DNA of 64,000 bases from Alcanivorax sp. (GTDB lineage: Bacteria > Pseudomonadota > Gammaproteobacteria > Pseudomonadales > Alcanivoracaceae). The stretch's first letter is position 1, and every line of letters begins with the position of its first letter. The stretch lies in assembly GCF_002733835.1 (NCBI RefSeq), contig NZ_NVWY01000003.1, forward strand, positions 1 through 64,000, written 5' to 3'. Below the pieces are notes generated by a model. It did not search any database. It saw nothing but the letters and a program-made list of their open reading frames with translations, and had not been told where the DNA came from. This document shows positions 35,857 through 60,457 of the stretch, piece after piece. The translations under genes and the position numbers were made by a program.

Positions 35857-35945
35857 GAAGCGAGTATCGAGTCACGAGTTGCGAACCCCCGGCTTTCCCA
35901 ATATCAAGTCTTGCCTTTCGAAACTCGCTTCTCGTCACTCGGGAC
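35857..35945. repeat. inverted heptad-array element 1 (non-coding)
   Basis: Four tandem 7-mers of form GNNNCGA (35857-35884), a 33-bp spacer, then four tandem 7-mers of form TCGNNNC (35918-35945), which is the inverse complement. The three internal bases differ in nearly every copy. It lies in the yicC-rph gap. Confidence 0.8.
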
Positions 35946-36104
35946 TGTCTTTTCGCCTGCAGGCAGGCGCCTGCGGCATGAAACACCGCGGGCGGTGCCG
36001 GGCTCCCTAGTCTAGTCGAGACGGGGTTGGGTGCAAGGCAGGCATTGGCGCCGGTGTTTGCTACAATGGTCGCCCTTTTGATTCCAAGACTACCAGGAGA
36101 TTCC

Positions 36105-38807: not shown

Positions 38808-38969
38808 GAAGTATCGTTCCCAGTTCTAAGCAACAAGCTTCTGGCTGCAACGCGAGTGCCAGAGGTATATCACAGGCAAGCACCGCGCCCAACGTTCCCG
38901 GGCGTGTTACTGCGGTTTTGTTTTTCACTGTTGTAGCGTTTCGCGGCAATCCCCCTCGCCGCAGGTTTA

Positions 38970-39122
38970 GTTGAAAGTGAAAAGTTTAAAGTTGAAACGC
39001 GGTTTGAGTCTGTGGATTTTGCAGGGGCATGCCCGCGATTGCCGGTAAGGGCGCGGGCTGCTGCCGTTAAAAACCAAAAACACGTTTGGCCGCGCTTTCA
39101 ACTTTGAACTTTCATCTTTCAG

Positions 39123-39123
<1 letters not shown>
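38970..39123. repeat. inverted heptad-array element 2 (non-coding)
   Basis: Four tandem 7-mers close to GTTNAAA (38970-38997), a 98-bp spacer, and four inverted 7-mers close to TTTNAAC (39096-39123) that end on the argB stop codon. The spacer shares the block TTTGCAGRGGC and a TGCCCGCG block with element 3. It fills most of the 38808-39122 gap, which has no gene. Confidence 0.8.
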
Positions 39124-40216
<1,093 letters not shown>

Positions 40217-40238
40217 TCCCCAACCGCATGATTCTACC

Positions 40239-43210: not shown

Positions 43211-43230
43211 TGATCAGTTCCTGATTAAAC

Positions 43231-43356
43231 GCCGGACGCCAAAAGCCTGAGGCCAGACAAGCATCAAAACAGGCGTTTCAACGTGGATCCGGTGTTTGGC
43301 GTCTGGCGTCCGGCAGACTTTACTGTTTGTCAGGCGTCCCGCATCGGGCGTCTGGC
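43231..43356. repeat. inverted heptad-array element 4 (three arrays)
   Basis: Four 7-mers of form GCCNNAN (43231-43258), a 28-bp spacer, then four inverted 7-mers of form NTNNGGC (43287-43314, first one degenerate) and a further four (43329-43356) that end just before the coaBC stop. The order of the variable base in the first array nearly equals that of the right array of element 6. Confidence 0.75.
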
Positions 43357-43360
43357 GCTA

Positions 43361-44560: not shown

Positions 44561-44687
44561 GCAAAAACCCTTGTTTGGATGACGGCAGTCATGGCGAATC
44601 TCCCCTGCCGCTGCAGCGCCAAGGCTGCTATCAAGTCAGGCTGCATAGAGTAGCACTGTATAGGAGACGCGGCACGCAGGACGGTTG

Positions 44688-45119
44688 GCAGGACGCCACA
44701 TGCCGGATGCCTGACGCAAAAGAGGGAGCAAGATTGTGAGGACGTACGAGAAAATACGGGTTTGGCAGTCCGCCATGGATCTCGTGGTATTGATCTATAA
44801 GGCCACGCAGGATTTTCCACGGAGCGAGCAATTTGGACTCGTTAGTCAAATGCGCAGGGCGTCGGTCAGCGTTCCCTCCAATATAGCGGAGGGTTATGGG
44901 CGGGGTTCGCAGGCTGACCGGCTTCGGTTCTTTTATATCGCCAGAGGCTCGTTATTGGAGCTCGAGACCCAGATTGCCATAGCCGCAAGGCTGGCATATG
45001 CCGGTGCCAACGTGCTTATTGGACAAACGGAGAAGGTGTTCGCCCAGTTGTCAGCGTTGATCACCCGTATGCAGGATGAGGCGTTTTTAGCGTCAGGCAT
45101 CCGGCCTCAGGCGTGGGGC
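44688..45119 (+). mobile_element. heptad-flanked element 5 carrying an S23-family gene
   Basis: The left end is four 7-mers close to GCCNGAY (44688-44715); the right end is four inverted 7-mers close to NTNNGGC (45092-45119). The 432-bp unit holds one gene, starting 20 bp after the left array; the right array encodes the last residues of that gene. The same end structure without a gene occurs at 35857, 38970, 40056, 43231, 45807 and 60423. The structure resembles a transposon with terminal inverted repeats built from 7-bp units. Mobility is inferred, not shown. Confidence 0.55.
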
Positions 45120-45125
45120 GTATAA
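44736..45125 (+). CDS. four-helix bundle protein (23S rRNA IVP / S23 family)
   Basis: 129 residues from a GTG start with GGGAG 7 nt upstream. The family core is clear: [21 protein letters not shown], then [17 protein letters not shown] near 47-63 and [16 protein letters not shown]. Relatives are found in 23S rRNA intervening sequences and, as Avd, beside reverse transcriptases of diversity-generating retroelements; they are basic four-helix bundles that bind nucleic acid. No reverse transcriptase or rRNA is nearby. Heptad arrays enclose the gene, and its stop is 2 nt before the radC ATG. The last 11 codons coincide with the right array. A role in spreading the heptad arrays is a hypothesis. 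Confidence 0.85.
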
Positions 45126-45802: not shown

Positions 45803-45806
45803 AAAC

Positions 45807-45933
45807 CCCTGACGCTTGATGCCGGATGTCAGATGTAAAAAGAGCATGGTGAGTCTTTCTGGCATTTGGCGCTAGCTGGCGGCTAAAAGACGGCGCTTGG
45901 TTGGTGTCTGGCTTCAGGCGTTTGGCGTCCGGC
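45807..45933. repeat. inverted heptad-array element 6 (non-coding)
   Basis: Four 7-mers close to GYYNGAY (45807-45834) begin 4 bp after the radC stop. A 71-bp spacer follows, then four inverted 7-mers close to NTNNGGC (45906-45933). The rpmB promoter must lie downstream or within it. Confidence 0.8.
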
Positions 45934-60413: not shown

Positions 60414-60422
60414 GAGAGTAAA

Positions 60423-60457
60423 TTAATAATGAATAGTTAATAATGAATAATTGAAAA
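60423..60457. repeat. heptad-array element 7, left part (AT-rich)
   Basis: Five tandem 7-mers close to TTAATAA/TGAATAR run from 60423. Inverted copies CTATTAA and TTATTAA begin at 60520 and are split by the insertion sequence at 60531, continuing after 61285. It lies between the hydantoinase and argH genes. Confidence 0.65.

Follow-up and report, generated by a model that had tools for sequence, protein, structure and literature searches.

S23-family genes between inverted arrays of 7- or 8-nt repeats, with scattered gene-free copies, behave like a kind of mobile element not yet described

A gene of the S23 family that lies between inverted arrays of short repeats, together with scattered copies that lack the gene, behaves like a kind of mobile element that has not yet been described. 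The architecture itself, an S23 gene between inverted arrays, is virtually certain to be real. We think it probable on balance that S23 genes enclosed by element-specific 7- or 8-nt arrays are widespread small mobile elements, alongside which gene-free elements spread. No description of this element class was found in open PMC papers, and the proposal of the preliminary description of this DNA that the form of the element is undescribed is upheld within that scope.

The window, namely the whole 64,000-nt stretch of DNA analyzed here, belongs to a 3.6-Mb draft genome that is 93.5% complete (G000). Its S23, or four-helix-bundle, gene occupies positions 44736–45125 of the + strand and encodes 129 amino acid residues from a GTG start. 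In profile searches, the ORF matched PF05635 (S23 / 23S_rRNA_IVP family) with 118.2 bits (cut-off, 33.8; E = 2.4e-34) and TIGR02436 with 114.6 bits (cut-off, 24), so that it belongs to the S23 family by a score above the curated cut-off, and PF05635 was the only family found in a Pfam search of the protein. Among named organisms, Alcanivorax sp. DG881 has the closest relative of this locus, with 98% protein identity (L063). AlphaFold predicted a four-helix bundle (pLDDT 93), and a structure search with the predicted protein returned 2gsc as the closest solved structure and also matched 2rld. The predicted fold resembled, more weakly, that of Avd of diversity-generating retroelements (4dwl; TM 0.70, rmsd 2.2, E 0.03, with 12% sequence identity to 4dwl_D in the fold alignment), and a diversity-generating retroelement ribonucleoprotein, 8ube, was likewise matched more weakly than 2gsc and 2rld. 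Residues invariant across 24 diverse S23 members include W10, Q38, N49, E52, and E75 in the numbering of the window protein. S23 shows few non-synonymous changes between species, the ratios of synonymous to non-synonymous codon differences in four pairs being 11:1, 25:2, 21:6, and 8:2. S23 protein structures have been solved since 2006, and Avd is a pentamer; to our knowledge, S23 proteins have no known function despite the solved structures.

The preliminary description had placed this gene between inverted 7-bp arrays, and the family match and the repeats flanking the gene agree with this. The left arm (44665–44717, + strand) is clear from 44695 and, by eye, degenerate from approximately 44665, and the right arm of inverted repeats (45090–45121, − strand) overlaps the end of the ORF. 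A 29-nt inverted pair (44693–44721 and 45086–45114; 86% complementary) brackets the gene, and period-7 segments were called by script at 44695–44717 and 45090–45121. With a strict script, three inverted period-7 pairs were found in the whole window, and no inverted pairs were found at periods 5, 6, and 8–13 or in 20 order-2 shuffles. A lenient script gave the S23 pair and five other inverted period-7 sites, with no pairs at periods 5, 6, 8–11, and 13 and none in 10 shuffles. Among these five sites, to which no strand was assigned, the gene-free elements at 38969–39124 and 40054–40217 have GTTGAAA-type arms with interiors of 97 and 105 bp, respectively. The diverged gene-free elements at 43229–43357, in the dut-coaBC spacer, and at 45805–45933, after radC, have heptamers like those of the window S23 element, and the former has two possible right arms (43291–43314 and 43329–43357). 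A diverged inverted pair with GAGTNNC-like arms and a 39-bp interior (35861–35946) was found with the lenient script alone. Together with a single array at 60421–60451 (AT-rich, period 7/14, AATTAATAATGAATA-like), for which no inverted partner was found, the five inverted sites come close to the six gene-free sites of the preliminary description.

The genome holding the window contains four S23 matches, and all four lie between inverted 7-bp arrays (4/4). The heptamers at the four loci are GTCGGAC-like, ATGCCNG-like, GCTACGA, and GTTGACA, and the GCTACGA array comprises 13 perfect copies; that the heptamer varies between loci is a correction to the preliminary description. The copy at the metK-ahcY site of this genome (L001, G000:C53:12493-12801) has clear arms and is probably a pseudogene, because it carries an in-frame TAG.

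S23 was present in 16 of the 17 genomes of the genus, G001 being the sole congener without it, and the strongest period was 7 or 14 in 57 of 64 flanks of 32 loci, a count that includes one misplaced flank window (upstream of L015). In a wide set of 80 loci from many bacterial phyla and one archaeal bin, the strongest period was 7 or 14 in approximately 99 and 8 or 16 in approximately 32 of 154 flanks, and 7 or 14 was the strongest in approximately 15 of 142 far flanks used as a control. When one rule was applied to 151 loci from many phyla and plasmids, a set that holds a few near-duplicates (e.g., L008 and L063), arrays were called in 134, with period 7 in 114 and period 8 in 20, so that inverted arrays of period 7 (or 8) are present beside other S23 genes as well, and this check, set by the preliminary description, did not refute its reading. 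The same script called 15 of 129 far-flank control pairs. No clear array was found in 17 loci, including the window's own (L002), whose arms are among the more degenerate ones and fell below the threshold. Arrays were present at 8 of the 8 plasmid loci first examined and were called at 35 of 42 viral-contig loci; in phages, tblastn gave no S23 match. Period-8 arrays occurred in Bacteroidota, Planctomycetota, Thermodesulfobacteriota, and others (L066, L086, L104, L118, L155, etc.). In the loci read, the S23 ORF was the sole gene between the arms, and no autonomous transposase-coding copy of the MITE/DDE kind was present. Two matches to the Acido-Lenti-1 RNA (RF01687) were located 0.6–1.2 kb downstream of S23 in a KSB1 bin (L069, 3486–3531 and 4059–4104).

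The left and right arms of an element resemble each other and change in concert, even where orthologous loci differ in heptamer. Among 100 loci with both arms above threshold (200 arms), the inverted match between arms beat the direct match in 92, and in 89 the element's own right arm ranked in the top 10% of the right arms of all loci. Four units per arm were the most common (81 of 200 arms), followed by five (43 of 200). Within the genus, similarity between proteins was correlated with similarity between heptamers (27 loci, among them orthologues; r = 0.60; 0 of 2000 permutations), and the correlation was 0.41 for pairs with less than 80% identity and 0.21 in the wide set. On a tree of 128 S23 proteins retained after a length and stop filter, the repeat period was clustered, with 12–13 changes versus 19 when shuffled (0 of 500), and the period can switch between near relatives.

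Within the genus, S23 genes were mostly found at a handful of orthologous sites (transporter-cysC, metK-ahcY, coaBC-radC, and glyA-nrdR), which were defined by flanking genes and named by eye from translations. The transporter-cysC site holds S23 in 12 species with four heptamer types, each species having one type on both arms, and the right arms of L003 and L016 are degenerate. At the metK-ahcY site, one S23 type was found in four species, and G008 has a different S23 with different arms. Full S23 matches within approximately 1.5 kb of radC were found in 5 of 17 species (G000, G008, G007, G012, and G014) and partial matches near radC in two (G003 and G016). Comparison of the coaBC-radC spacers in eight of the 17 genomes revealed the gene in G000, remnants in G001 (by eye) and G016, another gene in G009, and no S23 in G013, G011, G005, and G002, with possible traces of an arm in G005. 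The orthologous spacers thus vary, some being without a clear array, as would be expected under the preliminary description. S23 is positionally stable in the genus, and therefore the gene itself hardly moves in Alcanivorax. In two species, two S23 genes lie approximately 4 kb apart (G003:C5:47971/51823 and G010:C20:840508/844600), and one gene of each pair is the transporter-cysC site copy.

Plasmids of cyanobacteria gave true occupied and empty sites, the comparison that the preliminary description had called for. Site A is occupied in Trichormus variabilis ATCC 29413 and Scytonema NIES-4073 and empty in Aulosira, N. carneum, and Fremyella (three of six such records compared), where the sequence is approximately 97% identical and 428–431 bp shorter; GTAAT is present at both junctions as a 5-bp repeat. 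The empty sites had no arrays, and the occupied ones had both arms and the gene. Since occupied and empty sites were obtained at approximately 97% identity, S23 elements insert, and these sequences indicate that they are very probably mobile in cyanobacterial plasmids. A decayed site A copy was observed in Nostoc C052_E.

Site D is occupied in two Nostoc plasmids and empty in five. A single codon out of 122 distinguishes the two S23 genes, despite a surrounding 3-kb stretch that is 92.7% identical, which suggests recent spread of the site D element. In the gap after site D of the homologous operon, pNsp_c carries another S23 element with GGGAAAA-like arms, and in the gap before it, pNsp_a and pC052_B carry gene-free elements that are similar in their arms and positions and very different in their interiors. 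The junctions varied across the few sites, with approximately 8 bp lost at site H and ambiguous junctions at sites C, D, and G; no constant target duplication was found in these few plasmid sites, some of whose empty relatives are just 89–92% identical. At sites A, C, D, and G, the upstream gene has its stop codon at the insertion site or no more than a few bases from it, a placement that may reflect selection, and seven of eight plasmid S23 genes share the direction of the preceding gene. A hairpin-loop target preference is not claimed; no hairpin was seen by eye at plasmid sites A, D, and H. In G005, the loop of a REP palindrome holds a gene-free element, and site 2 of G016 is a bare hairpin.

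Dispersed gene-free copies are present in S23-bearing genomes of the genus, and they follow the plan of an arm, approximately 97 bp, and an inverted arm. A survey of 47 genus sequences (468 kb), 30 of which were chosen for holding an array, yielded 30 inverted array pairs versus one direct pair. The gap was 94–105 bp in fifteen pairs, and gaps of 372–462 bp included S23 copies. The 94–105-bp interiors were mostly GC-rich, and many of them fold strongly as single sequences; RNAalifold, applied to 15 gene-free interiors, returned a single 5-bp helix with weak support and showed no common fold. By eye, the interiors are unlike deletion products of the S23 gene, which is a correction to the preliminary description. 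A further correction is that, in this genus, the S23 genes occupy a few stable sites and it is the gene-free elements that are dispersed, as in REPIN-RAYT systems.

The AGYTNNR x3 pattern had 279 matches in the window genome, 8 in the S23-less G001, and 11 in G002, figures that include overlaps in long arrays and are not element counts; at period 8, the pattern had 0 matches in all 17 genus genomes. The contrast between G000 and G001 is confounded, because Y1 transposases, like S23, are missing from G001. G004 had 700 matches, many of them overlapping, and a single S23 of another subfamily with AGTTAAC arms, so arrays can outlive or lack their cognate gene. Across 398 genomes of the phylum, at least four matches to AGTNNNN-type arrays were found in 30 of 62 S23-bearing versus 14 of 336 S23-less genomes (Fisher p ~1e-17, uncorrected for kinship). 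Seven S23-less genomes had at least 10 matches; for four of them (G411, G198, G368, and G321) the sample includes congeners with S23, and for the other three (G058, G223, and G380) it includes no such congener. The same pattern read backwards had at least four matches in 25 of 62 S23-bearing versus 31 of 336 S23-less genomes (hand count) and is not a neutral control, because it, too, is more frequent in genomes with S23, as variable heptamers would lead one to expect. The backwards AGYTNNR pattern likewise matches other heptamer types, most in G005, G007, G013, and G014. GGGANTN arrays were found in 9 of 398 phylum genomes, 6 of which have S23, and this pattern read backwards also matches nine genomes; in G170, a GGGANTN-type array lies approximately 200 bp from an S23 match. 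By eye, the gene-free arms resemble the cysC-site S23 arms in G012 and G010, do so partially in G007, and are unlike them in G005 and G014, and G004 has no S23 at that site. The pairing of gene-free arms with a cognate S23 within a genome is suggestive. Overall, we lean slightly toward S23 being needed for the spread of gene-free elements.

Heptamer arrays of Xanthomonas, cyanobacteria (whose STRRs were reportedly described by Mazel in 1990), and Beggiatoaceae and the origin of rRNA intervening sequences have so far been treated as unrelated problems. One class of gene plus repeats would connect S23 function, heptamer arrays, and ribosomal intervening sequences, and, if true, would give one origin for the intervening sequences, the cyanobacterial and Xanthomonas heptamer arrays, and the TAACTGA repeats. 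According to one report, the Coxiella 23S intervening sequence contains an S23 ORF and a 28-bp terminal inverted stem, has tandem GACAGAT heptamers before the ORF, is excised by RNase III, and was called a selfish element, and Xanthomonas S23 is a pentamer (PMC4990558). The window ORF similarly lies inside terminal inverted repeats, but the S23 elements described here are intergenic or lie between operon genes. No Rfam match reached the gathering score in the window, where one match by E-value was at chance level, and hence no rRNA was found there; none was found in 40 other S23 loci.

Another study describes Xanthomonas GGGAATC arrays as 7-nt units, four being the commonest number, with 70 and 75 inverted pairs in two genomes, and Nostoc GGGGAYT heptamers with few inverted pairs in the strain and none of the repeats on its plasmids; the study in general found no association with mobile elements (PMC4692102). 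A text search of it for S23 and for four helix gave no match. In Luteimonas (L085), the S23 arms have the unit GGGAATC, as in the Xanthomonas arrays. The Coxiella and Xanthomonas heptamers fit the plan of the S23 element, and 23S rRNA intervening sequences would most likely be the same kind of element inside a ribosomal RNA gene. For Beggiatoaceae, the source paper reports TAACTGA arrays as direct repeats with one inverted case, reads them as translational signals, and considers a mobile repeat-binding protein among the explanations (PMC4679880); its text gave no match for intervening or four helix bundle. These intergenic heptamer arrays are like the S23 arms, one of which (L083) has one exact unit (TCAGTTA) among near variants, and differ from them in being reported as direct repeats.

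REPIN-RAYT systems offer the closest parallel in plan: as described in PMC8049555, RAYT is a stably inherited gene with inverted short repeats and dispersed gene-free paired repeats, and more repeats occur with the gene. S23 genes likewise lie between inverted repeats of which gene-free copies are dispersed elsewhere, and vertical inheritance at fixed sites was found for S23 in this genus alone. Unlike RAYTs, S23 elements have no Y1/HUH domain and have an Avd-like fold, their arms are arrays of locus-specific 7- or 8-nt units instead of REP palindromes, and they occur on plasmids as occupied and empty insertions. In the genus, 60 Y1 transposase matches were found in the same 16 genomes as S23, a coincidence that would suit a system in which the arrays belong to another mobile element, such as Y1 (RAYT-type) transposases, with S23 as a passenger. 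However, among the 20 of 60 Y1 regions examined, no flank pair was called at period 7 and one was called at period 8. These flank windows were measured from the Y1 domain instead of from the end of the ORF; in the whole regions, which were also scanned, L316 alone had a period-7 segment with a score of at least 9, in an array approximately 0.9 kb away. REP-like GTAGGAGC/GCTCCTAC octamers were found near Y1 genes in 12 of the 20 regions (L300–L319), a count without a chance control. Because the 20 Y1 flank pairs examined are without period-7 arrays and 12 of 20 regions have the REP octamer, the genus seems to contain two coexisting pairings of gene and repeat, Y1 with REPs and S23 with heptamer arrays. 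Since arrays also accompany S23 genes across many phyla, a passenger role for S23 is hardly credible.

A role for S23 as a regulator of the host, with the arrays serving as its operators or as mRNA-processing sites and nothing being mobile, would accord with the few non-synonymous changes and the stable sites in the genus. It is very unlikely in light of the empty plasmid sites, the different S23 elements in two neighboring gaps of an operon whose homologues are carried by different plasmids, and the near-identical S23 genes at site D. A somewhat better case can be made for S23 generating or homogenizing repeats in place by slippage or template switching, the arrays being a product and not carried ends: orthologous loci keep their place while both arms switch heptamer together, arms can grow to tens of perfect units, and element remnants in G010 and G016 resemble palindrome collapses. 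Nevertheless, empty sites have no arrays where occupied ones have both arms and the gene, and gene-free copies bear both arms away from any S23 gene, and we regard this explanation as unlikely. An RNA route, in which cleavage of the transcript at the arm stem, of the kind performed by RNase III on intervening sequences, would be followed by transfer of the RNA by S23, in the manner of Avd, to a trans-acting reverse transcriptase, draws on the Avd fold, the RNase III excision of the Coxiella sequence with its S23 ORF (PMC4990558), and the shared direction of seven of eight plasmid S23 genes with the preceding gene. Against it, and unlike a diversity-generating retroelement, 11 of the 16 S23-bearing genus genomes had no RVT_1 match, including the window genome, for which the absence is uncertain because the assembly is 93.5% complete; we consider this route distinctly improbable.

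We give nearly even chances to the reading that S23 elements form a recombinase-less mobile class, in which a ring of S23 reads the 7- or 8-nt repeat with one subunit per repeat, and with which private repeats, gene-arm coevolution, and separate gene-free families would go. The mechanism of a ring on an array is put forward tentatively, as a possibility rather short of even. S23, whose published relative is a pentamer, would bind the arms as single-stranded RNA or DNA with approximately one subunit per repeat, and the paired arms would form a stem of approximately 28 bp. Arm-bound S23 might then help the element and its gene-free relatives to be copied elsewhere by host replication or repair enzymes; host enzymes are invoked because no recombinase is encoded and the junctions are not constant. 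Should an Avd-like protein help to mobilize DNA in an element that encodes no recombinase, this would be a new mode of mobility and, if true, would be relevant to the question of how Avd was recruited by retroelements.

S23 genes were also observed in CRISPR-Cas contexts on three cyanobacterial plasmids (loci L193 and L240 and match H76). The plasmid of Anabaena sp. 90 carries S23 between cas6 and cas4 of a type I-D operon, and a plasmid of Picosynechococcus PCC 7003 carries it at type III-B Cmr2-Cmr3, where it is absent in PCC 7002. On a Pseudanabaena galeata plasmid, S23 was found under a cas6-cas4 match (H76), as seen from the listing alone.
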